From: an uncultured Pirellulaceae bacterium
GTDB lineage: Bacteria > Planctomycetota > Planctomycetia > Pirellulales > Pirellulaceae
Direction of reading: 5' to 3'
DNA: 55,596 nt
NCBI GenBank assembly: GCA_905480545.1
Contig: CAJQQR010000092.1
Coordinates: forward strand, 1-55,596
The notes under the pieces are model-generated. The model worked only from the letters and a program-made list of their open reading frames with translations. It was not told the DNA's origin and did not search any database. The position numbers were made by a program, and so were the translations under genes. The stretch's first letter is position 1. Each line of letters starts with the position of its first letter. Below are positions 1,206 to 44,146 of this stretch, in pieces.

Positions 1206-1493
1206 TCGTTTTTATCTCCTAATTAAATTATTACTGCAGATTGAGAACTAAGCGATCGTTAAAAGATAACCAAAACGGCAAACAGATTCAATTGTTTCGG
1301 GATATCTTCCGCATCAGGCGCTCAAGGGTCTGGAAACGGTCATTAGTCAAAGTGAGTCGTTAAACAGGGTGTTTTTCATAGATATTCCCGATTAACACTT
1401 GGTGGATTTGCCGCTGAGCCTCGATTTCCCGTTAAGGGAGTTAGTCAACGGATCATCTTTTTATGTCACTTAGTACCATTTGACACTAAATCG

Positions 1494-3212
1494 TTACAAA
1501 GAACTGAGAAAGTTAGCTAAAGTTTTGGTGTTGATGACATCTTTTTTTGTTAAGCCACCTCGACGGGCTTGTTTGATGCCAAACTGCATGACATTCAACC
1601 CTTTTACACTGTGGGCGTCGGTGTTAATGGCGACCGGAATTTTATTGGTTTTCGCGGTCGCGCAGAACACGTCGTTCAAATCGAGCCTGGCCGGATTGGC
1701 GTTTAGTTCAAGGATTGTTTTGTATTTTTTTGCCGCTGCAAAAATTTCGTCCATCGCAACCTCATACGCTTCGCGTTTGTTAATCAATCGCCCGGTGGGG
1801 TGTGCGATGCAATCGACATGAGGGTTTTCGATTGCACCCAAAATGCGATCGGTGATCTGTCGACGGGGCTGATTTTGACCGTAATGAACTGCTCCTAGCA
1901 CCCAGTCAGCTTGCTCAAGGATTTCGTCGGGCAAATCCATTCCACCTTTTTCCAGGATGTCACATTCGATCCCTTTGAAGACGCGGAAATTTAAATCCAA
2001 CTGGTTATTGATTTGGTCAATTTCGGACCATTGTTTCAACAATCGTTTTTCATCCAAACCATTCGCCATGGTTACGCGTTTGGAATGGTCAGTGATCGCA
2101 ATATATTTCAGTCCGCGTGACTTTGCCGCGTCGATCATTTCCGCGAGTGTTGCTTTGCCGTCAGTTGCGGTGGTATGCATATGCAAGTCACCACAGATAT
2201 CTTCTTCAGTGATCAAGTCTGGAAGTTGATCACGGTCTGCCCAATCAAATTCGTTGCGTGCCTCTCTGATTTCCGGTGCGATCCACGGCAAGTTGATTGC
2301 CGAATAAACTTCTTCTTCTGTTGCGCCGGCAACATATTGATTGTCCTCTTCTCGATAAACGCCCCATTCGTTGATCTTCAATCCCATTTGCTTGGCGCGA
2401 CCTCGCACAACCACATTGTGGTCCTTTGAGCCAGAGAAGTACTGAAGCGCAGCACCAAATGACTCGGGAGGAACGACGCGAAGATCAATCTGAAACCCGT
2501 CCTCAAGCCGCACCGACATTTTGGTATCTCCACGTCCGATCACACTGGCGATTCGCTCGAACGTTGCGAACCGATCCATTACGGTTTTTGCGTCGCCCGA
2601 GTCTACTAGAATGTCAAGGTCGCCGACGGTCTCTTTGCCACGACGAAAGCTTCCGGCAAATTCGAGTCTTGCAATCGCCTCGCAGTCTGTAAAGTGTTGT
2701 TTCAGTTCGTCCGAGAGCGATGCTGCATTCGCCCATTTAATTCTTTGGTTTGCTGACGCCGCGATCTCTATGCCATCCAATATGACCTTCTCGGTTTTTG
2801 CTCCAAAGCCATCCAGCTTTCGAACTTCTTCTGCCTCGCAAGCAGCCGCTAACTGTTCAAGATCCGCAATATTTAATTCTTTAAATAAGACGGCAGCTTT
2901 TTTGGGGCCAAGCCCAGGAATTCGCAGCATATCCAAAACCGTTGCCGGAACTTCTTCTAGGATCTCATCCAATTGAGGGAGCGAGCCCGTGTTTACGAGC
3001 GTTTGACACTTTTCGGCGACACCTTTTCCGATCCCGTCGATGTCGGTAAGTTTTTGGTCCGAAGTCGCCAGAATGCTCGCAACCGATTCACCAAGATCTT
3101 TAATAACGCGGGCACCGTTTCGATAGGCACGAAGCCGAAACGGATTGGATCCTTGGAATTCAAGCAGGTCAGCGAGTTGTTCGAGCTTTTCAGCGATTCG
3201 TGCGTTGTTCAT
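1494..3212 (-). CDS. polX: DNA polymerase/3'-5' exonuclease PolX
   Basis: Bacterial family X DNA polymerase with a C-terminal PHP exonuclease domain, acting in base-excision or gap-filling repair. The order is standard: an N-terminal 8-kDa-like helical domain beginning N-N-A-R-I-A-E, helix-hairpin-helix segments (IDGIGKGVAEK; IPGLGPKKA), and the nucleotidyltransferase motif GSFRRGKETVGDLDILV with the catalytic Asp pair. The PHP metal site follows (GDLHMHTTATDGK, AITDHSKR, later IAHPTG and NTDAHS). I chose the ATG at 3212 because the family begins directly with this helix. A TTG nine codons upstream (3239) is also possible. The length of 572 residues is normal. It lies 183 bp downstream of the DUF2339 gene on the same strand. 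No missing residues noticed. Confidence 0.95.
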   Translation of the reverse strand: MNNARIAEKLEQLADLLEFQGSNPFRLRAYRNGARVIKDLGESVASILATSDQKLTDIDGIGKGVAEKCQTLVNTGSLPQLDEILEEVPATVLDMLRIPGLGPKKAAVLFKELNIADLEQLAAACEAEEVRKLDGFGAKTEKVILDGIEIAASANQRIKWANAASLSDELKQHFTDCEAIARLEFAGSFRRGKETVGDLDILVDSGDAKTVMDRFATFERIASVIGRGDTKMSVRLEDGFQIDLRVVPPESFGAALQYFSGSKDHNVVVRGRAKQMGLKINEWGVYREEDNQYVAGATEEEVYSAINLPWIAPEIREARNEFDWADRDQLPDLITEEDICGDLHMHTTATDGKATLAEMIDAAKSRGLKYIAITDHSKRVTMANGLDEKRLLKQWSEIDQINNQLDLNFRVFKGIECDILEKGGMDLPDEILEQADWVLGAVHYGQNQPRRQITDRILGAIENPHVDCIAHPTGRLINKREAYEVAMDEIFAAAKKYKTILELNANPARLDLNDVFCATAKTNKIPVAINTDAHSVKGLNVMQFGIKQARRGGLTKKDVINTKTLANFLSSL

Positions 3213-33268: not shown

Positions 33269-35134
33269 ATGATTACGATTTCGGAAGAGCTTAACACCAC
33301 CAAACCGTCCACCGAAATTGCCGGAGCGACCGTTCGTTTGGCGGGTGATTCAGGCGATGGCATGCAGCTGCTAGGGACTCAGTTGACCAATACGTCAGCA
33401 CTCTCAGGAAATGACGTTGCAACATTTCCGGACTTTCCGGCAGAGATACGCGCACCGCGTGGAACCCGGGCTGGTGTCAGCGGCTTTCAGGTTCAGTTCG
33501 CCTCTGAAGAGATCTTCACGCCAGGTGACGGGCTTGATGCATTGATTGCAATGAATCCGGCCGCGTTGCTGACCAACGTCCAAGACCTGAAAGAGAGTGG
33601 GATCTTGATCGTTGACGAAGATAGCTTCGCCGCGAAAGATTTGAAATTGGCGAAGACCGACGTCAATCCACTCGATGATGAGTCACTTTCTAAATACCGC
33701 TTGATTAAGGTGCCGGTGACATCGTTGACTCGAACCGCGGTTGCCGAGCTGGGGATGTCGCAGAAGCATGCGGATCGCTGCCGCAACTTCTTTGCGATGG
33801 GGTTGGTGTTTTGGCTTTACGGTCGCGATTTAACGCCAACTTTACGTTTTATTGATGAGAAGTTTGGTAAGAAGCCGGAGGTTGCCGACGCGAATGTCCG
33901 TGCCCTCAAAGCAGGGTGGAATTATGGTGAAACGACCGAGGCATTGGCGACCAGCTTTCATGTCAACCCGGCGAAACTTACTCCGGGGACTTACAAAAAC
34001 ATTATGGGCAATCAAGCGTTAGTTTACGGCTTGGTTGCTGCCTCAAAGTTAAGCGGGAAGGACTTATTCCTCGGCTCATACCCAATCACTCCTGCAAGCG
34101 ACATTTTGCATGAGCTGAGCAAGTACAAGCATTTTGGGGTCCGGACTTTTCAAGCGGAGGATGAGATTGCAGCGGTCTGTTCTGCGATCGGGGCATCCTT
34201 TGGTGGTTCGATGGCGATTACAACCTCCAGTGGTCCAGGGATTGCTCTCAAAGCGGAGGGCATTGGTCTGGGGATCATGATGGAGCTGCCGATGTTGATC
34301 ATCGACGTTCAACGCGGTGGGCCAAGTACCGGCCTGCCCACGAAAACCGAGCAATCCGATTTGCTGCAAGTCTTATATGGACGTAATGGTGAATCTCCCA
34401 TCCCGGTGATCGCAGCGCGGAGCCCCGCTGACTGTTTTGACGTGGCACATGAAGCTTGGCGAGTTGCGACTCGATTGATGACGCCTGTTTTTATTCTTTC
34501 TGACGGCTTTATTGCCAATGGTTCGGAGCCTTGGAAAATTCCAACGGAAGACGAATTGCAACCGATCGAAATTTCACATCCAGCGGGAACGACGGATGGG
34601 GCAGAGTTTCTGCCATATCAACGCGATGAGCTTTTGGCGCGGCCTTGGGCCCTTCCTGGAACCGAAGGGTTAACACACCGGCTGGGTGGTTTGGAAAAGG
34701 AAGACATCACCGGAAACGTTAGTTATGATCCGGACAATCATCAGCACATGACGCACGTGCGTGCACAAAAAGTCGAAAACGCTACGGAGCTGATTGGAGA
34801 CCAGGTAGTCAACGGACCGACAAATGGCGACTTGCTTGTTCTCAGTTGGGGCGGTACGTTCGGCGCTTGTGCGACCGCGGTGCAACAATGTCAAGCGAGG
34901 GGCCATTCAGTGGCTCATACTCATCTGCGTTGGTTGAATCCGTTCCCAAAAAACCTCGGCAAAATTTTGAGCAATTACAAGAAGATTCTGATTCCAGAAT
35001 TGAATACAGGACAGCTTCGCATGTTGATTCGTTCGAAGTTTTTGGTCGATGCGGAAGGCTTCAACAAGATCAAGGGAAAGCCGTTTGGTATCGCCGAACT
35101 GGTAGAGCAGATCGAGCGACAATTAACGACATGA
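33269..35134 (+). CDS. korA: 2-oxoacid:ferredoxin oxidoreductase, fused gamma-alpha subunit
   Basis: Alpha subunit (621 residues) of a two-subunit 2-oxoacid:acceptor oxidoreductase, most likely 2-oxoglutarate:ferredoxin oxidoreductase. The N-terminal gamma-like domain starts VRLAGDSGDGMQLLGTQL and includes FPDFPAEIRAPRGT. The alpha domain from about residue 250 holds GNQALVYGLVAASKL, GSYPITPASDILHEL, FQAEDEIAAV, and ITTSSGPGIALKAEG for the thiamine pyrophosphate pyrimidine site. Then comes DVQRGGPSTGLPTKTEQSDL. With KorB it converts 2-oxoglutarate and CoA to succinyl-CoA, reducing ferredoxin. ATG 33269. It pairs with korB 155 bp downstream. Confidence 0.93.
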   Translation: MITISEELNTTKPSTEIAGATVRLAGDSGDGMQLLGTQLTNTSALSGNDVATFPDFPAEIRAPRGTRAGVSGFQVQFASEEIFTPGDGLDALIAMNPAALLTNVQDLKESGILIVDEDSFAAKDLKLAKTDVNPLDDESLSKYRLIKVPVTSLTRTAVAELGMSQKHADRCRNFFAMGLVFWLYGRDLTPTLRFIDEKFGKKPEVADANVRALKAGWNYGETTEALATSFHVNPAKLTPGTYKNIMGNQALVYGLVAASKLSGKDLFLGSYPITPASDILHELSKYKHFGVRTFQAEDEIAAVCSAIGASFGGSMAITTSSGPGIALKAEGIGLGIMMELPMLIIDVQRGGPSTGLPTKTEQSDLLQVLYGRNGESPIPVIAARSPADCFDVAHEAWRVATRLMTPVFILSDGFIANGSEPWKIPTEDELQPIEISHPAGTTDGAEFLPYQRDELLARPWALPGTEGLTHRLGGLEKEDITGNVSYDPDNHQHMTHVRAQKVENATELIGDQVVNGPTNGDLLVLSWGGTFGACATAVQQCQARGHSVAHTHLRWLNPFPKNLGKILSNYKKILIPELNTGQLRMLIRSKFLVDAEGFNKIKGKPFGIAELVEQIERQLTT

Positions 35135-35289: not shown

Positions 35290-36303
35290 ATGAGCTCAAC
35301 ACTAAACGTATTAAAGCCAACTGATTTTGCCAGCGACCAAGACATTCGATGGTGTCCCGGTTGTGGTGATTATTCGATTCTGGCTCAGATGAAAAAGATG
35401 TTGCCATCACTTGGGTTTTCCCGAGAGGAAACGGTTTTCATTTCCGGAATTGGCTGCTCGAGTCGTTTTCCGTACTACATGAACACCTACGGGATGCACA
35501 GCATTCACGGCCGCGCACCTGCATTCGCAACGGGCTTGAAATCGACGCGACCTGAGCTGCAAGTTTGGGTCATCACGGGCGACGGTGACGGATTAAGCAT
35601 CGGTGGCAATCATTTGATGCACTGCATTCGTAGGAATTTGGATGTCAACATCGTGATGTTTAACAACAGCATCTACGGGTTAACCAAAGGCCAGTATTCT
35701 CCGACTTCGCCGCTGGGTCATGTCACCAAAAGTACGCCGCGGGGTTCAATTGATAACCCTCTCAGTCCTTGCACAGTCGCGATCAGTTCTGAAGCAACCT
35801 TCGTGGCTCGCTCGATCGACTTTAATACCAAGCATCTTGGCGAAACATTAAAACGAGCCGCTCAGCACCGTGGAGTTTCTTTTGTTGAAGTGAATCAGAA
35901 TTGCAATGTCTTCAACGACGGGGTTTGGAGCCATATGACGGATAAAGAGACCAAAGAGGACAATGTATTGGTCTTGGAGCACGGCAAACCAATGATTTTT
36001 GGGAAGAACCGGGACAAAGGGATTCGCTTGAACGGACTGGACCCCGAGGTTGTTTCGCTAGAACAGATCGGTGAGGACGATTTGCTTTTCCATGATGAAA
36101 CAATCGAGTCGCCTATGCTTGCAATGCTGCTGTCTAGGATGAAATTCCCTGAATTTCCGGTGCCAATTGGAGTTTTTCGGAACATTTCTGCACCGATGTA
36201 CGACCAAAGTCTTAATGAGCAAGTCGCAGATGCCCGGCAAGAGAAGGGTGAAGGCGATTTGATGGAGCTTCTGCATTCTGGTGACACTTGGACTGTGGAG
36301 TAG
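35290..36303 (+). CDS. korB: 2-oxoacid:ferredoxin oxidoreductase, beta subunit
   Basis: Beta subunit of about 337 residues carrying the thiamine-pyrophosphate and iron-sulfur parts. It has RWCPGCGDYSILAQM with two cluster cysteines, ISGIGCSSRFPYYMNTYG, HGRAPAFATGLK, and the diphosphate-binding GDGDGLSIGGNHLMH followed by N-N-S-I-Y-G-L-T-K-G-Q-Y-S-P-T-S. F-V-E-V-N-Q-N-C-N-V-F-N-D completes the family signature. I chose ATG 35290; a TTG four codons earlier is possible. It pairs with korA. The complex is usually oxygen-sensitive, and its presence suggests ferredoxin-linked central metabolism. Confidence 0.93.
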   Translation: MSSTLNVLKPTDFASDQDIRWCPGCGDYSILAQMKKMLPSLGFSREETVFISGIGCSSRFPYYMNTYGMHSIHGRAPAFATGLKSTRPELQVWVITGDGDGLSIGGNHLMHCIRRNLDVNIVMFNNSIYGLTKGQYSPTSPLGHVTKSTPRGSIDNPLSPCTVAISSEATFVARSIDFNTKHLGETLKRAAQHRGVSFVEVNQNCNVFNDGVWSHMTDKETKEDNVLVLEHGKPMIFGKNRDKGIRLNGLDPEVVSLEQIGEDDLLFHDETIESPMLAMLLSRMKFPEFPVPIGVFRNISAPMYDQSLNEQVADARQEKGEGDLMELLHSGDTWTVE

Positions 36304-36532
36304 CCCGACGATCGATTTATAGGAGAAATTTCCGAAAATTGTGAAGGAAACTCATTGCCAGGGGTGTCTGTTCTGTTGGACAATGGTGGTAAGGGCCCGA
36401 TCTTTGCTCGCCAACTTTTGTCAAAAAGATAGTCAACTGAGCATTTGATGCCAACGTTTTAGAAGTTTCCGCATTTAACGCGGTAGGCCGGGTGACCGGA
36501 GTTGTATTTTTTCAATGGGAGTTTTTGACTAA

Positions 36533-37885
36533 ATGTCACGATTAATTATTCTACTATGCCTCACCCTAGGCATTGTCATGACCGGTTGCGGTGGTGATGA
36601 AAAGGGTAAAAGCGACAAAGGCGGTGATAAAGGAACTGCTGCGGATAAGGCCGCTTCGGGTTCAAAAGATACCACCGACAAAAAAGAAGGTGGTGGCGAC
36701 AAAAAGGATGCGAAGCCAGGCGACGGTGCTTCGGTCGGAAAATCGGGTGATATGCAAATGGTCAGTCTCAAACTGCCCAACATGACCTGAGGCGGTTGCG
36801 AACGTTCAGTGCAGTCTGCACTAACCAAAGCAGGTGTTTTCAAAGACCTTAAAACGGACTTGAAGAAGACGACAGCGACTTTTAAGGTCTCTGCTGACGT
36901 CGATTTCAAAACAAAGCTTGATGAAATCGTTGCCGGTGGTAACACACACGTTAAAGGCTACGAAGTCGAAACAGCCGCTCCAGCAAAGGGTGACGGAGCT
37001 TCTCTTCAGAATGCCGGCTCAATGCAGTTTGTTTCTGTCAACAAAACAGGTGATTGCTGTGCCAGCAAGAAAGCATGCTGCAAGGCATGTGAAACCGGCG
37101 ACAGCGAATCATCGTTTGTTACCGTTTCAACGGTTGTAGATGACGAAGAAAAAAAAGAAGAAAAGAAAACCAAAACGGTCAGCCTAAAGCTGCCGAACAT
37201 GACTTGAGGTGGTTGCGAACGTTCAGTGCGGTCTGCATTGACGAAAGCAGGAATCTTCAAGGATCTCAAAACCGACGTTAAAGCACATACGGCGACATTC
37301 GCTGTTTCAACCGGCGTCGATTTCAAAAAGAAGCTCGACGCAATCGTTGCCGACGGCAACCGTCACGTTAAAGGCTACGAAGTCGCTACCAAAAAAGACG
37401 ACAAAAAAGAAAAGCCAAAGACAAAGACGGTCAGCCTGAAGCTGCCGAACATGACGTGAGGCGGATGCGAACGTTCAGTGCGGTCTGCACTGACCAAAGC
37501 AGGTGTCTTCAAAGATCTTAAAACCGACGTCAAAAGCAATAGCGCGACCTTCAAGGTTTCAGCTGATCTCAACTTCAAAAAGAAGCTTGACGAAATCGTT
37601 GCCGACGGAAATAAGCACGTCAAAGGTTACAAGATCGAAAAGAAGAAAAAGGATGTCAAAAAGAAGACGGTCAGCTTGAAGCTGCCGAACATGACCTGAG
37701 GCGGATGCGAACGTTCAGTGCGGTCTGCACTGACCAAAGCCGGAGTCTTCAGCGATCTCAAAACTGACGTCAAAGCCAATACCGCGACCTTCGCAGTTTC
37801 GGCTGATCTTGATTTCAAGAAGAAGCTTGACGAAATTGTCAAAGCGGGTAACAAACACGTTAAAGGTTACGAAGTCAAAAAGTAA
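36533..37885 (+). CDS. Selenoprotein lipoprotein with four Sec-containing HMA domains (four in-frame TGA)
   Basis: A single frame from ATG 36533 to TAA 37883-37885 gives 450 residues if four TGA codons (36788, 37205, 37457, 37697) are read as selenocysteine at residues 86, 225, 309 and 389. Residues 1-19 are a lipoprotein signal ending V-M-T-G-C. A Lys/Asp/Gly-rich linker reaches about residue 75. Each of the four modules then reads V-S-L-K-L-P-N-M-T-U-G-G-C-E-R-S-V, about 70 residues each. This is the heavy-metal-associated motif M-T-C-x-x-C with Sec replacing the first Cys. A Cys-rich insert (C175, C176, C182, C183, C186) lies between modules 1 and 2. Each TGA has a SECIS-like hairpin about 20 nt downstream. 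TGA is a normal stop in neighbours (cstA, glgB, acpP). Predicted role: soft-metal binding or selenol redox at the envelope; this is inference. GGGAG at 36517 is a ribosome site. A selenium-unaware caller would stop at 36790. Confidence 0.88.
36804..36825 (+). promoter_or_regulatory. Bacterial SECIS-like hairpin 1
   Basis: It follows TGA 36788-36790 by 13 bases. Stem GTT-(bulged C)-AGTGC pairs with GCACT-AAC, and the loop is AGTCT. The first loop base is A here instead of G in the other copies, changing the overlapping codon from Arg to Gln, but the G-U of the loop is kept. Confidence 0.75.
37220..37243 (+). promoter_or_regulatory. Bacterial SECIS-like hairpin 2
   Basis: It follows TGA 37205-37207. 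Stem CGT-(bulged T)-CAGTGC pairs with GCATTG-ACG, with one G-U wobble. The apical loop GGTCT begins 23 bases after the TGA. The loop sequence equals the SelB-recognised GGUCU of E. coli fdhF. Confidence 0.82.
37473..37494 (+). promoter_or_regulatory. Bacterial SECIS-like hairpin 3
   Basis: It follows TGA 37457-37459. Stem GT-(bulged T)-CAGTGC pairs with GCACTG-AC, loop GGTCT starting 23 bases after the TGA. Perfect inner six base pairs. Confidence 0.82.
37713..37734 (+). promoter_or_regulatory. Bacterial SECIS-like hairpin 4
   Basis: It follows TGA 37697-37699 and is identical in sequence to hairpin 3: bulged stem, loop GGTCT. Confidence 0.82.
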
Positions 37886-37914
37886 TTTCCTTTGATGTAA
37901 GATAGAAAAAGCGA

Positions 37915-37947
37915 AAACCGAGTTGTTTTGCAACTCGGTTTTTTTAC
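37915..37947 (+). terminator. Rho-independent terminator of the selenoprotein gene
   Basis: A perfect 11-bp stem (AAACCGAGTTG with CAACTCGGTTT, loop TTTTG) running into a T-tract, 29 bases after the TAA stop. Its position right after the fourth module shows that transcription continues past all four TGA codons. Confidence 0.9.
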
Positions 37948-37999
37948 GTCTACACGTGTCCGTTGCAACCATCAAAAAAAATACAGGTCTTCTAACACA

Positions 38000-39490
38000 A
38001 TGTCGATTCGATTTTCTTCTGGCAACGCGCGATTGCATGCATGTTTTCAATCCGCATGCATCCTGATCTTGGCTTCCGGATTAGGTTGGGGGCAGGACCA
38101 ACACTCGTCCTCGGCGCCCTATTTCGGAAACGGTGCCAAAGTCGGTGAAGTCGATCAAACGTCGGCTATTGTATGGACACGCTTAACAAAACAACCGCAG
38201 GCTAATTTTGGTTTGCTTCCGATCTTCACCGAAGGGCTTCCATCGAACGCCCGATCAAAAATCGAGATGCCACTTGGCGTCTTGGACGGCGAACCGGGGC
38301 AAATCTGTGTGCATTTTGCACCATTCAATGAATCGTTTAAAAACCTATCCCAAAATCCAAAACGGCAAAAAACCCAATGGTTCGAAGTTGACTCCTCGCG
38401 AGATTTCACCCGGCAGATCAAGCTGGCAGGTCTGGCCCCAGCCACACGATATAAGTACCTAATCGAGGCTCGAAAAACTGTCGAATCTGAGCCATCGAAT
38501 TTCATTGAGGGTTTCTTCGAAACCTCGCCGATTAAGAATGATTCAACTCCGATTCGATTTATTGTTTCAACCTGCCAAGCGGTTCGAAGCATCGACTCTG
38601 GCAAGGATGGACATGTCGCATACAAACAGATGCTAGGATTCAAGCCACATTTCTTTGTCCATACGGGCGATATTTTGTACTACGACAAGGTTCCGTTAAG
38701 CAAGAACGAATCTCAGGCGCGAGCGAAATGGAATCTGATGTTTGCCTACAAACATAATCAACATTTTCATCAGCATGTTACGTCGTACTTTATGAAGGAT
38801 GATCATGACACTTTAAAGAACGATTGTTGGCCTGGGCAAACTTATGGTGATTTGACTTTTGAACAAGGCCTCAATATTTTTCGAGAGCAAGTACCGATGG
38901 GTGAGAAAACCCATCGCACCTATCGTTGGGGAAAAGACGTCCAGATCTGGATGACTGAAAATCGAGACTTTCGTTCACCTAATCGAATGCAGGACGGTCC
39001 TAAGAAGACGATTTTGGGGGCGAAGCAAAAAGCCTGGTTGAAGAAGTCGATCACCGAATCGGATGCCACATTTAAATTTGTCATCACACCCGGTCCGATT
39101 GTTGGCCCCGACAAAAAAGGTAAAGCTGATAACCATTCAAACGCAAATTTTGCCTTTGAGGGTCAGGAGCTGCGTGATTTTCTTTCACAGCAAAAAAACA
39201 CCTTTGTGATTTGCGGCGATCGACATTGGCAATATTGTTCAAAAGACCCCAAGACTGGACTGCTTGAGCTTGGATGCGGTCCGATCAACGATGAGCATAA
39301 ATTTGGAGGAAACCCCGGTCGGAAAACTGAATTCCATCGCTATTTTAGTGGGAAAGGTGGTTTCCTTGGGATTACAGTCAAAGAAGACAATGCGACGGCG
39401 GAATGGTTTACATCCAATGAAATCGATCCCGCGACCAAGCAGCCGAAAGTTAGGTATCGTGAGGAGTTTTTAGCAAGTAAAAGTGAGTAA
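38000..39490 (+). CDS. PhoD-like secreted phosphatase
   Basis: Metallophosphoesterase of the alkaline phosphatase D family, 496 residues from ATG 38000. A signal peptide (about residues 12-32) precedes a fibronectin-like N-domain that begins FGNGAKVGEVDQTSAIVWTR, as in PhoD. The metal site includes FVHTGDILYYDKV, M-K-D-D-H-D and ICGDRHWQY. It likely releases phosphate from organic esters or diesters outside the cytoplasm. An in-frame extension back to 37928 overlaps the upstream terminator and is rejected. It stands 50 bp after that terminator, so it has its own promoter or reads through. Confidence 0.9.
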   Translation: MSIRFSSGNARLHACFQSACILILASGLGWGQDQHSSSAPYFGNGAKVGEVDQTSAIVWTRLTKQPQANFGLLPIFTEGLPSNARSKIEMPLGVLDGEPGQICVHFAPFNESFKNLSQNPKRQKTQWFEVDSSRDFTRQIKLAGLAPATRYKYLIEARKTVESEPSNFIEGFFETSPIKNDSTPIRFIVSTCQAVRSIDSGKDGHVAYKQMLGFKPHFFVHTGDILYYDKVPLSKNESQARAKWNLMFAYKHNQHFHQHVTSYFMKDDHDTLKNDCWPGQTYGDLTFEQGLNIFREQVPMGEKTHRTYRWGKDVQIWMTENRDFRSPNRMQDGPKKTILGAKQKAWLKKSITESDATFKFVITPGPIVGPDKKGKADNHSNANFAFEGQELRDFLSQQKNTFVICGDRHWQYCSKDPKTGLLELGCGPINDEHKFGGNPGRKTEFHRYFSGKGGFLGITVKEDNATAEWFTSNEIDPATKQPKVRYREEFLASKSE

Positions 39491-39634
39491 TCGTAAATAG
39501 AGAAAATCGGCAGCTGTCTACCTGTTTTTTAACGATTCGAATCGACGTGGGTGGAACACCTGAGGGCCCATTCGATTAGAATGTCGCTCTACCATCAAAC
39601 TATTCGATCTCACCATTTCTTCTTGGGCGGCAGA

Positions 39635-42600
39635 ATGTTGTACCTAAAGATTTCCTGTGTTTTACTATCGGTAATCGCGTTCTACCAGTCGCGTTCCATC
39701 CACGCGAATGAGGTCGTATTTGAACGATTCACAATTACGGAAGAGTTTTATTCCGAGGGCACTTCGTTTGCAGATATCAACAAAGATGGAAAAGTCGATT
39801 TGGTGTCTGGGCCCTATTGGTACGCCGGGCCCGACTTTCTCCAAAAGGTTCGCTACACCGAAGGTGAATCGCTTCCGATAAAGGGTTATTCGAAACACTT
39901 CTTCACATGGACCTACGATTTTAACAAAGACGGCAATATCGATATCTTGACCGTAGGCATGCCAGGTGAGCCAGCGTTTTGGTTTGAGAATCCCGGGGTG
40001 AAATCGAAAGGCAAAACAGTCGCGACGCAAAACTGGAAGCGTCGCGAAGCGATCGACAATATTTGCAATGAATCGCCAGCATTCACCGACATAACAGGAG
40101 ACGGCATTCCTGATTTGGTTTGCATTCGACATGGAGCATTCGGTTACGTCGAGCCAAAATTTGACGGTACGGCAGTGACGTTTCAATTCACCGCAATCAC
40201 GCCAAATAAAGGGCTGGGTCGATTCACTCACGGAATGGGAATAGGTGATGTTGACGGCGATGGACGTAACGACCTTTTGGAAACAAATGGTTGGTGGCGA
40301 CAAACGGAAACCAAGGGGCAGCTGTTTGAGTTTCATCCGTTCCGATTTGCACAAATTGGCGGCGCGCAAATGTTTGCGTACGATTTTGATGGTGATGGTG
40401 ACAACGATGTGATCTCATCGCAAAATGCGCATGGATATGGTTTGACATGGTTTGAGCAAAAAAAATCGGGAACGAAAATCGATTTTGTTCCCCATAAAAT
40501 CATGACCGATAACCCAGCTGACAATCCGTTCGGTTTGGCCATTTCACAAATGCATGCTCTGTTTTTGACCGATGTCGATAACGATGGCGTTCAGGATATC
40601 GTGACGGGTAAACGGTATTGGGCGCATGGGGGTGGTGACCCTGGTGCGAAACAACTTCCGATTCTGTTTTGGTTGAAGACAGTTCGGAGAAAGGGTCGCG
40701 TCCTTTTTGTGCCAAAACTTATCGACGAACGATCCGGCGTGGGGACTCAGGTCACTGCCGGAGATGTCAATGGCGACGAAAAAATCGACATTTTGATCGG
40801 TAACAAATTGGGGACCTATTTGTTTGTGCAGCAGGACGATTTTCAACGTATCGAAAAAAAATGGTCGGATATCCCATTGAATGTTGGCAGCAAAGAATTC
40901 AATGAAAACGTGCGAACGACCGAACCGCTTTCGCCACGAAAGCAGCAAAAGACCTTTGTCCTGCCTCCTGGGTTTGAGATTCAACTTGTTGCTTCCGAAC
41001 CTCAAATTGCCAAACCGATGAATATTGCGTTTGGTCCGCGCGGGCGATTATGGGTCAGTAGCTCGCTGGAGTATCCATTTGCTGCGGCTGATCCATCGAA
41101 GGCCCGTGACGCCATCAAAATACTGGAGGACACCGACAACGATGGGGAAGCGGATAAGGTTACAACATTTGCGGACAAACTAAATATTCCGATGGGATTG
41201 CTACCCCATAAAAACGGCGTGATTTGTTTCAGCATCCCGAACATTTGGTTTCTGTCGGACACGGACGGTGATGGCAAAGCGGACAAGCGTGAGGTTCTTT
41301 ACGGGCCGTTTGATACGACGCGGGATACGCATGGAATGTGCAGCAGTTTTACTGACGGAAAAGATGGTTGGATTTATGCTTGTCATGGTTTCAATAACCA
41401 ATCGACGGTTTCAGGAAACGATGGTCATGAAGTCCAACTGAATTCGGGAAATGTCTTTCGCTTCAAAGCGGATGGTTCCCGTATTGAAATTGTGACTCGT
41501 GGACAAGTTAATCCGTTCGGTTTAACGATTGATAGCCGTGGAGACATCTTCACTGCGGACTGTCACACCAAGCCAATCAACTTAATTTTGCCTGGCGGCC
41601 ATCATGATAGCTTTGGAAAGCCACATGACGGTCTGGGCTATATTCCCAACGTGATGGAGCACTTGCATGATTCAACTGGAATCGGCGGCATTGCATTGGG
41701 TGAATACACGAAATTCCCTGATGTTTACAAGAGGAGTACGTTTGGTGGGAACGTTGTTACTGGACGAATCAACCGAAATCACTTGGTTTATTCGGGTTCA
41801 AGTATGGCAGCGCGAGAAGAATCAGACTTTGTGATTCCCGGTGATCCATGGTTCCGACCTGTTAATCTCCAAGTGGGTCCAGACGGGGCACTTTACATCG
41901 CCGATTTTTATAATGCGATCATCGGTCATTACGAAGTCGATCTCAATCATCCGAAACGTGATCGGCAACGTGGTCGAATCTGGCGTGTCGTGTTCTCAGG
42001 CGATGAAAACCGAAGAAATTTCAGGCAGAATATATGCATGCCGCGAACCGATTCTCCCGATTCCTTCGAAGTGCAAATCGAAGCATTTCGACAGCTTGCC
42101 AATCGGAAGGAACTTGTGGGAAACGAACCGCTTGTATTGGCGAAGGGACTAGGTTCAGAAAATCCGTTCATTCGCCGCTTCGCTGTTATGGCGATTGCAA
42201 AGCATCCAGAGTGCGAATTCTCCACTCAACTTGTTGCATTATTGGCAAAAACACCATCATCGGATCGTTACCTGATTCACGCGATCAAAATTGCGTTGCG
42301 AGACCATCTGAAGGGTCGCGATCAGCGATTCCGAGCAGTCGCGAAACTGATTCCAGAGTCGGTTTATCAGCCGTTTGCCGACGTTTGCTTGGCGATCAAG
42401 ACTGAACCGGCGGCAGAGTTTGTCGTCAACAATATTGCGAAAATTTCAAAGAACGATGCCGCAAAGCTAACGGCGTATTTGGAGTTTGTTTCTCAATATG
42501 GTTCGACCGATTCGCTTGTCTCCATTGTTTCGATCGCGCAAAAACGATTTGGAAATGACATTGATTTTCAGTTGACGTTGTTGGAAGGCATTCGCACCGG

Positions 42601-44146
42601 GCTAACGAAACGTGGCGAGAAACTCACGCCTTCTGTTCGCCAATGGGCGACAACGATTGCCGATAAATTGTTCGGTCCTACGCTTTCCGGTTCAAAGAAA
42701 GCCGATGAAGTTTTGAGTTGGAGCTACTTTAAAGATGAAACAGCGGTCGCGCCGGCGGATACCGAAAATATCTTTATCCAATCCGATCGTCGAAATTCTG
42801 CCGACGGAATGGTCAAAACGCCATTGTGGAGTAGCATCGTCAAGGGCGAACAGCAAACCGGAATATACCGAAGCGAACCGTTTGAATTGTCCAGTGAATT
42901 TTCTTTTTATCTTGCTGGGCATGATGGCGTTCCTGACAAACCTTTAGGCAATTTAAATTATGTTCAATTGCGTTTGGTCGCGACGAATCAAGTGATCCGG
43001 AAGTGCACGCCGCCGCGAAACGACACCGCCCAAAAAATGGTTTGGGATACAAAGAAGTTTGACGGTCAATTCGCGGTGATGGAGCTGGTCGATCAAGACT
43101 CAAGCGGAGCGTACGCTTGGTTGGCAGCGGGGCGATTTTCGCAGCAAGGACTGAATCCGTCAAAGAGGCTTCAGAATCAGAAAAAAGCGGCAGAGATTGT
43201 CGAGCAATTCGGTTTAACCAACATGCGAAAAAAGATTGTCGATCTGTTGGCCAATTCCAACGGTGGGCAATTGGCGGAGTCGTTGTGCTCAACACTGGTC
43301 GCTCTCGATTCCAAGTCACTTGAATCGGCTGCAGTTTTTCGAGCATCCTCAATGGTTCAAAGTTTGCCAAACGTCGGTGTGAAATCGAAGAAGTCCGCGA
43401 TTCAAGCGATCGTTTCCGGCGATTTAATCGCGGCCACGAATGTTCTGGGTGAAATTTCCAAGACCGCGTCGGCTGCGCAGCAGGGTCGATTCGCAAACGC
43501 CTTGGTCACCGACAAGAAAGGAGCGAAAACACTTGTCAAAATGGTCGAAGGCAATCAGCTTTCACCAGCCGTTTTTTCTGATTCTCGTTTAGTGGATACG
43601 ATTAAAGCGTATGACGATCAAGCGATTTCAAAAGCGGTTGATGCGTTCGTTGTGAATCTTCCGAAGTTGGATGCGGCGGCGGTTGCATTAATGAAACAAC
43701 GTATCGAAAGCTACGTAACCAAGGCTCCTGCGATTTCGAACGGGTTAAAAGTCTTTGAAAAGAACTGTGCTAACTGTCATCAGATTGCAGGTAAAGGCAA
43801 ACAGGTCGGTCCGAATTTAGATGGGATCGGAGCACGCGGTCTCGATAGATTGGCGGAAGATATCTTGTTGCCCAATCGAAACGTTGATGCCGCGTTTCGT
43901 GCATCATTGATCGGGACGGATGACGGACGAGTTTTTAACGGATTTGTCAAGAAAACAAACGATGAAACGGCATCTCATTTGACGTTGGTGGATACCACAG
44001 GGAAAGAGATCCTGATTGCAAAATCCGAGATCGAAAACCAAAAAGAGACTCGTAGTTCGCCGATGCCGAATAACTTTGGCGAGACCCTTTCGAATGACGA
44101 TTTTCGCGATCTAATCGGATTCTTGATGTCGAGCAGAAAAGAATGA
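39635..44146 (+). CDS. Secreted FG-GAP / PVC-type heme-binding protein (1503 residues)
   Basis: Multidomain exported protein. A signal peptide (residues 3-23) precedes an FG-GAP/VCBS-like propeller (to about 430) with calcium-binding loops D-I-N-K-D-G-K-V-D, D-F-N-K-D-G-N-I-D, D-V-D-G-D-G-R-N-D and D-F-D-G-D-G-D-N-D. A PVC-type dehydrogenase-like propeller follows (FVLPPGFEIQLVASEPQIAKPM; ADFYNAIIGHYEVDLNHP). A HEAT-like helical region and a C-terminal cytochrome c with C-A-N-C-H at residues 1378-1382 and V-G-P-N-L-D-G-I-G complete it. Such proteins are a hallmark of planctomycetes and are thought to oxidise sugars outside the cytoplasm, with electrons leaving through the heme. I chose ATG 39635; GTG 39551 is an upstream option. 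Confidence 0.92.
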   Translation: MLYLKISCVLLSVIAFYQSRSIHANEVVFERFTITEEFYSEGTSFADINKDGKVDLVSGPYWYAGPDFLQKVRYTEGESLPIKGYSKHFFTWTYDFNKDGNIDILTVGMPGEPAFWFENPGVKSKGKTVATQNWKRREAIDNICNESPAFTDITGDGIPDLVCIRHGAFGYVEPKFDGTAVTFQFTAITPNKGLGRFTHGMGIGDVDGDGRNDLLETNGWWRQTETKGQLFEFHPFRFAQIGGAQMFAYDFDGDGDNDVISSQNAHGYGLTWFEQKKSGTKIDFVPHKIMTDNPADNPFGLAISQMHALFLTDVDNDGVQDIVTGKRYWAHGGGDPGAKQLPILFWLKTVRRKGRVLFVPKLIDERSGVGTQVTAGDVNGDEKIDILIGNKLGTYLFVQQDDFQRIEKKWSDIPLNVGSKEFNENVRTTEPLSPRKQQKTFVLPPGFEIQLVASEPQIAKPMNIAFGPRGRLWVSSSLEYPFAAADPSKARDAIKILEDTDNDGEADKVTTFADKLNIPMGLLPHKNGVICFSIPNIWFLSDTDGDGKADKREVLYGPFDTTRDTHGMCSSFTDGKDGWIYACHGFNNQSTVSGNDGHEVQLNSGNVFRFKADGSRIEIVTRGQVNPFGLTIDSRGDIFTADCHTKPINLILPGGHHDSFGKPHDGLGYIPNVMEHLHDSTGIGGIALGEYTKFPDVYKRSTFGGNVVTGRINRNHLVYSGSSMAAREESDFVIPGDPWFRPVNLQVGPDGALYIADFYNAIIGHYEVDLNHPKRDRQRGRIWRVVFSGDENRRNFRQNICMPRTDSPDSFEVQIEAFRQLANRKELVGNEPLVLAKGLGSENPFIRRFAVMAIAKHPECEFSTQLVALLAKTPSSDRYLIHAIKIALRDHLKGRDQRFRAVAKLIPESVYQPFADVCLAIKTEPAAEFVVNNIAKISKNDAAKLTAYLEFVSQYGSTDSLVSIVSIAQKRFGNDIDFQLTLLEGIRTGLTKRGEKLTPSVRQWATTIADKLFGPTLSGSKKADEVLSWSYFKDETAVAPADTENIFIQSDRRNSADGMVKTPLWSSIVKGEQQTGIYRSEPFELSSEFSFYLAGHDGVPDKPLGNLNYVQLRLVATNQVIRKCTPPRNDTAQKMVWDTKKFDGQFAVMELVDQDSSGAYAWLAAGRFSQQGLNPSKRLQNQKKAAEIVEQFGLTNMRKKIVDLLANSNGGQLAESLCSTLVALDSKSLESAAVFRASSMVQSLPNVGVKSKKSAIQAIVSGDLIAATNVLGEISKTASAAQQGRFANALVTDKKGAKTLVKMVEGNQLSPAVFSDSRLVDTIKAYDDQAISKAVDAFVVNLPKLDAAAVALMKQRIESYVTKAPAISNGLKVFEKNCANCHQIAGKGKQVGPNLDGIGARGLDRLAEDILLPNRNVDAAFRASLIGTDDGRVFNGFVKKTNDETASHLTLVDTTGKEILIAKSEIENQKETRSSPMPNNFGETLSNDDFRDLIGFLMSSRKE

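Follow-up and report, generated by a model that had tools for sequence, protein, structure and literature searches.

A planctomycete gene with four in-frame TGA codons, predicted to encode a heavy-metal-associated lipoprotein with four selenocysteines

Does a reading frame interrupted by four TGA codons encode one protein that carries selenocysteine (Sec) four times, and what would such a protein do? The question is raised by a gene at positions 36533-37885 (forward strand) of a 55,596-nucleotide stretch of DNA from an uncultured Pirellulaceae bacterium, the whole of which is called the window here. The frame comprises 451 codons and ends in TAA, and its only internal stops are four TGA codons, at codons 86, 225, 309 and 389 (36788-36790, 37205-37207, 37457-37459 and 37697-37699, forward strand); base composition predicts ~24 stops over this length, and the other two frames of the same strand contain 16 and 31. 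An earlier note, made from the sequence alone, had described a single frame broken only by TGA, always at the same motif position, and this description held: there is no TAA or TAG inside, and every TGA lies in LPNMT-U-GGCERSV, where it takes the place of the first Cys in the C-x-x-C site of a heavy-metal-associated (HMA) domain. GC3 stays between 0.45 and 0.61 across the five inter-TGA segments. With Cys written for Sec, the entire product has a calculated mass of 47.7 kDa and matches the Pfam HMA model (PF00403) in four stretches (E = 4.2e-33; 114 bits against a gathering cut-off of 24.8).

The features of the gene, all on the forward strand, are those of a putative lipoprotein. A candidate ribosome-binding site (GGGAG, 36517-36521, read by eye) lies 11 nt before the ATG, and a predicted signal peptide (36533-36589) ends at Cys19 of a lipobox-like V-M-T-G-C, also read by eye; the single-domain gene of a congener has V-L-T-G-C, and half of the 40 short TGA-form relatives (20) conform to a strict lipobox pattern. 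A Lys/Asp/Gly-rich linker (36590-36754) precedes HMA modules 1 (36755-36973), 2 (37172-37390), 3 (37424-37642) and 4 (37664-37882), whose pairwise DNA identity is 0.75-0.84 (16-25% different), and a candidate intrinsic terminator, a stem-loop with a T-run read by eye, stands at 37916-37945. Between modules 1 and 2 lies a five-Cys linker, CCASKKACCKAC (37055-37090), which is absent from the congener's single-domain gene, differs between database fragments (it is altered in P0020-P0025) and may itself bind metal.

One way to read through the four codons would be for UGA to mean tryptophan throughout the organism (code 4 or 25). Of the 26 ORFs in the window that reach 250 aa, 6 end in TGA, among them a 2-oxoacid:acceptor oxidoreductase alpha gene two genes upstream (33269-35134), and UGA is therefore not globally recoded, in agreement with the earlier note, which had pointed to genuine TGA stops nearby. 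A tRNA-Sec with a UCA anticodon is present, and sense codons at the site in relatives are Cys in 6 of 6 cases. Trp does occur at the site in one database protein, P0014, which lies outside the 72-row set described below and was seen as protein sequence, not as codon. We rejected the tryptophan reading on these grounds and regard it as the least probable of the alternatives considered.

The source genome assembly (300 contigs, 87.6% complete) contains tRNA-Sec (68.7 bits, anticodon UCA), SelB (379.4 bits), SelA (583.7 bits) and SelD (265.6 bits), each above its curated cut-off, so that selA, selB, selC and selD, the genes that the earlier note had proposed to look for, are all present. Across the genomes of the same bacterial family, SelB was found in 43 of 47 with a TGA form as compared with 71 of the remaining 194 (Fisher P = 3e-12, a value that overstates independence because the genomes are related). 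Of the four TGA-form exceptions, three (G044, G062 and G176) have tRNA-Sec and SelA, and in G176 a remainder of SelB sits beside SelA at a contig end. The fourth, G135 (80% complete), counts against the Sec reading, as it has none of tRNA-Sec, SelA and SelB over the cut-off. Among genomes with a Cys form, the near-complete G004 and G005 have neither SelB nor tRNA-Sec, and G046 and G019 do have Sec machinery. SelA-family matches occur in G004 (297 bits, just above the cut-off) and G005 (260 bits) without SelB over the cut-off or tRNA-Sec; these are perhaps SelA paralogs.

To collect relatives, 241 genomes of this bacterial family were searched with read-through of stop codons; 59 gave matches, the source genome included. 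With a floor of 28 bits, 72 domain rows were aligned (4 from the window and 68 others); seven matches below the floor (in L019, L080, L083 and L086) were left out, as were 7 of the 80 listed match places (G043, with one TGA, G092, G015, G098, G124, G081 and G082). The codon at the Sec site was TGA in 66 rows, TGC in 5 and TGT in 1, i.e. TGA or Cys only, which bears out the expectation that a TGA-tolerant search would find homologs with Cys, and no random residues, at the Sec positions. The second Cys is retained in 71 of the 72 rows, its sole loss being in a decayed fragment, L002. In a phylum-wide sample of 392 genomes (threshold E 1e-9), 8 genomes outside the family had matches; the site is TGA in one of them (G552, same class), which by eye has a hairpin with a GGTCC loop at the equivalent place, and the other seven have no stop. 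Database proteins with Cys at the site were also found (P0002-P0004 and P0017-P0019), and among the 8 proteins read of 15 matched, four (P0005, P0008, P0013 and P0016) are stubs ending at LPGMT, one of which, P0008, is recorded as a hypothetical protein of Mariniblastus sp.

Between modules of the window gene, the part after the TGA gives dN/dS of 0.12-0.21 (dS 0.58-1.29), which shows purifying selection: what follows each UGA is maintained as protein. These values weigh directly on the idea that the gene has decayed, with an 85-residue protein ending at the first TGA and the remainder being untranslated remains of Cys domains. Decay would fit the facts that gene callers stop at the first TGA, that public records contain such stubs, and that a related decayed fragment exists elsewhere in the source genome. 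It does not fit four TGA codons at one site with zero TAA or TAG, the low dN/dS after every one of them, or the identical TGA in 61 further non-relic domains; the true relic, L002, moreover differs in its lost second Cys and a stem of just 3 bp. We therefore rejected decay as very improbable. The relic itself (1486-1689, reverse strand, contig C275 of the source genome, G000) reads KLPNMK-U-TGRES, has lost most of the hairpin stem along with the second Cys, and is similar to the HMA portion of the YceI fusions described below.

Bacterial SECIS elements carry a conserved G in a small apical loop, according to the accessible part of PMC1088965. Hairpins were accordingly scored as a stem whose loop starts 13-30 nt after the TGA and has a G within its first two bases, the distance range having been chosen in this analysis and not taken from that paper. 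In the window gene such hairpins follow each TGA, all with the loop GTC: hairpin 1 (36808-36822, 6 bp), hairpin 2 (37223-37241, 8 bp), hairpin 3 (37475-37493, 8 bp) and hairpin 4 (37715-37733, 8 bp). Taken singly they are only borderline, with null frequencies of 0.079, 0.047, 0.050 and 0.054, respectively (0.047-0.079), and the four segments have unremarkable folding energies, since 0.31-0.50 of resamplings reach values as low. Across the family, the stem after the TGA reaches 6 bp or more in 50 of 66 rows (48 of 62 distinct) and is shorter in 16 of 66, while synonymous resampling, with 300 trials for each of two codon usages, gave a mean of 12.9 and a maximum of 23 when codons followed the window's usage, and a mean of 13.3 and a maximum of 25 when they followed that of the individual gene. 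The effect is tied to the site, as 50 of 65 rows scored at the TGA, whereas the same test placed at ten other codon offsets scored in 1-27 of 65; stems in the six Cys rows measure 3, 3, 2, 2, 8 and 2 bp. When 56 distinct relatives were placed in one register, six stem positions paired in 36-56 sequences, several with changes on both sides, the loop-adjacent position paired in 27 and the outermost in 4. In the genus of the window the stem reads TCAGTGCG/TGCACTGA, with variants, and is shifted by five bases relative to the rest of the family, and it is retained in all four modules and in both genes of the congener G061. An Rfam search of 36000-38500 returned a lone sub-threshold match, to an Enterococcus sRNA family (22.4 bits versus 100), over the terminator. 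Taken together with the codons, the machinery and the selection results, the insertion of selenocysteine at all four TGAs of the 36533-37885 gene is strongly supported as a prediction from sequence.

Apart from the relic and the window gene, 61 genes carry the TGA, in three architectures: 40 are short forms of about 106-197 residues, 12 have a different N-terminal part and about 240-270 residues, and 9 carry a YceI-type motif, YceI being confirmed by Pfam in both fusions tested (L043 and L074). The YceI-type proteins (L043, L058, L068, L071, L074, L075, L081, L082 and L085) have a C-terminal Sec-HMA domain with U-S/T-G-C. In the forms of ~250 residues (L022, L024, L026, L049-L050, L052-L054, L019 and L021) a Lys-rich N-terminal part precedes a single Sec-HMA domain; they have Cys versions in P0002-P0004 and P0017-P0019, and one such form gave a sub-threshold Pfam match to LTXXQ (Spy/LTXXQ). 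A profile search found one HMA domain per relative, the two matches in L064 representing two adjacent genes. The only congener compared, G061, has at the same locus a 166-residue lipoprotein-like gene with one domain and one Sec, and by eye the oxidoreductase alpha and beta genes before it and a phosphatase-like gene after it are common to both loci. Because G061 has the one-domain version between the same neighbours, the array of four modules is most likely a product of duplication within the genus.

The single module of that congener and the division of the assembly into 300 contigs could also be taken to mean that the array was built from a shorter gene by assembly error. The modules, however, differ by 16-25% in DNA, and the junctions recur in separate database fragments, 1-2 at 76-98% identity and also 2-3 and 3-4. 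A 132-residue query taken from between the first and second TGA matched 13 database proteins: six of 128-135 residues (P0020-P0025) match the entire query at 76-98% identity, and seven shorter ones (P0026-P0032) match modules 2-3, 3-4 or similar, with variants in linker length. These pieces, 73-135 residues long, are database records, with no source given for P0020, P0022, P0027-P0030 and P0032; P0029 represents 27 contigs, the longest of 2.2 Mb. All except P0031 (12 of 13) end at LPNMT, as at a next UGA, and the codons at these junctions are inferred to be TGA. Misassembly was accordingly rejected, and we give it hardly any credence.

If the four-Sec product is made, its fold suggests a role with metals. 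An AlphaFold2 model of module 4 (pLDDT 91) has the order E-H-E-E-H-E and is ferredoxin-like, its best Foldseek match is MerP (1osd, TM 0.77), and in the aligned PDB chains the M-x-U-x-x-C motif corresponds to metal sites. In the mechanism that we propose, each hairpin would recruit SelB so that Sec is inserted at four points during a single round of translation. The product, predicted to be exported and lipid-anchored, would bind a single thiophilic ion, for example Cu(I) or Hg(II), at each selenolate-thiolate pair U-G-G-C just ahead of HMA helix 1. Capacity would be increased by the tethering of four sites and by the five-Cys linker, and replacing S by Se would give higher affinity and a site recoverable after oxidation. 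Soft-metal trapping by this product is inferred, and it is not separated from redox activity because U-x-x-C is also a common redox motif. The same four-Sec product might instead cycle between selenenyl-sulfide and selenol-thiol states and reduce surface disulfides or peroxides, metal binding being incidental; many Sec families have redox motifs such as UxxC and most are probably redox in function, according to the accessible part of the inventory in PMC13188914, and the retention of both site residues in 71 of 72 rows is compatible with either role. We consider this redox role rather unlikely in view of the modelled HMA fold, which is not thioredoxin-like and among solved structures comes nearest to MerP and copper-binding domains, and of the correspondence of the motif to metal sites. 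We prefer, with a probability of about two in three, the reading of a four-Sec, predicted surface-anchored product in which soft metals, for example Cu(I) and Hg(II), would likely be trapped.

Counting against the preferred reading, the neighbourhood of the gene contains no adjoining metal-transport gene; there are no mer genes beside it, and no functional partner stood out among the relatives' flanking ORFs (BLAST-clustered and unannotated, ~1-2 kb per side). Further along the window, 39551-44146 (forward strand) encodes a 1531-residue PVC-type heme-binding CxxCH protein (TIGR02604, TIGR02603) with a TGA stop.

How new is such a protein? With MerP (TIGR02052) and PF00403 it shares the fold and the M-x-C-x-x-C site, MerP 1osd being also the best structural match, and it scores 79.7 bits against TIGR02052, below the cut-off of 92.55; unlike MerP, it has Sec for the first Cys, four modules, a lipobox and no mer genes alongside. 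Among the Sec-containing proteins tabulated by the Global Ocean Sampling survey (PMC2398784) are MerP and an ATPase UxxC; its Sec-MerP is likewise MerP-like, carries Sec and comes from marine DNA, and the comparison is with the table row alone (2 sequences, 0 Cys homologs). Two NCBIfam models also match all four stretches. NF041115, a UxxU metal-binding (seleno)protein, is another small metal-binding Sec protein (60.3 bits, below its cut-off of 95), but it describes a single domain of 74 positions with U-x-x-U, versus U-x-x-C here; NF045683, a MerT/CopZ fusion-like heavy metal transport selenoprotein, matches through its CopZ-like part (61.2 bits, below its cut-off of 375), the match being confined to that C-terminal part. 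The single-Sec HMA relatives of the same bacterial family share the LPNM-x-U-x-x-C site, the hairpin and the downstream sequence but have one domain and one Sec each, some being fused to YceI. Animal selenoprotein P is an unrelated protein whose SECIS elements lie in the 3' UTR, in contrast to a hairpin after each UGA here.

Since the survey table lists Sec in MerP and ATPase UxxC and NCBIfam holds two related Sec models, the idea of a single Sec in MerP/HMA-like proteins was already known. The earlier note had proposed a four-Sec HMA lipoprotein as a new type; its Sec reading and the tandem four-Sec form stand, but the protein does not stand alone: it is the tandem member of an HMA family that is widespread and otherwise single-Sec, and earlier predictions had already placed Sec in MerP/HMA-like proteins. 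Selenoproteins are reported in a planctomycete genome paper, to judge from the accessible part of its text (PMC4807772). A 2026 inventory of prokaryotic selenoproteins (PMC13188914) gives, in its accessible part, 119 families or subfamilies with at most three Sec and mostly one, and its Table 1, taken in full, lists no PF00403 lipoprotein. Literature searches, whose coverage left out most subscription papers and preprints, found no tandem-Sec HMA protein. What is new, with reference to that inventory as accessible, is the planctomycete Sec-HMA family, with its short lipoprotein-like, YceI-fused and ~250-aa forms, together with its tandem four-Sec member.

Drawn together, these observations point, somewhat less firmly than the trapping role yet still on the probable side, to a message in which four SECIS elements would specify four Sec; to a sponge of selenolates, tethered at the cell surface, that would take up Cu(I) or Hg(II) and would have grown from a one-Sec module by duplication within one planctomycete genus; and to the most extreme member of a Sec-HMA family that is large, includes lipoproteins as well as YceI and ~250-aa fusions, and is stored in databases as truncated stubs. 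The consequences for annotation are direct, as Sec-HMA genes are being cut at UGA, for example in the four LPGMT stubs, and the arrays appear as pieces of 73-135 residues. The predicted four Sec exceed those of every bacterial family in the accessible part of the inventory (PMC13188914). A bacterial protein with four Sec would be a natural test of SelB efficiency at successive UGAs in one message, where partial efficiency at each UGA would leave most products truncated, and it raises the question of why Sec sits in metal sites, beyond enzyme active sites.
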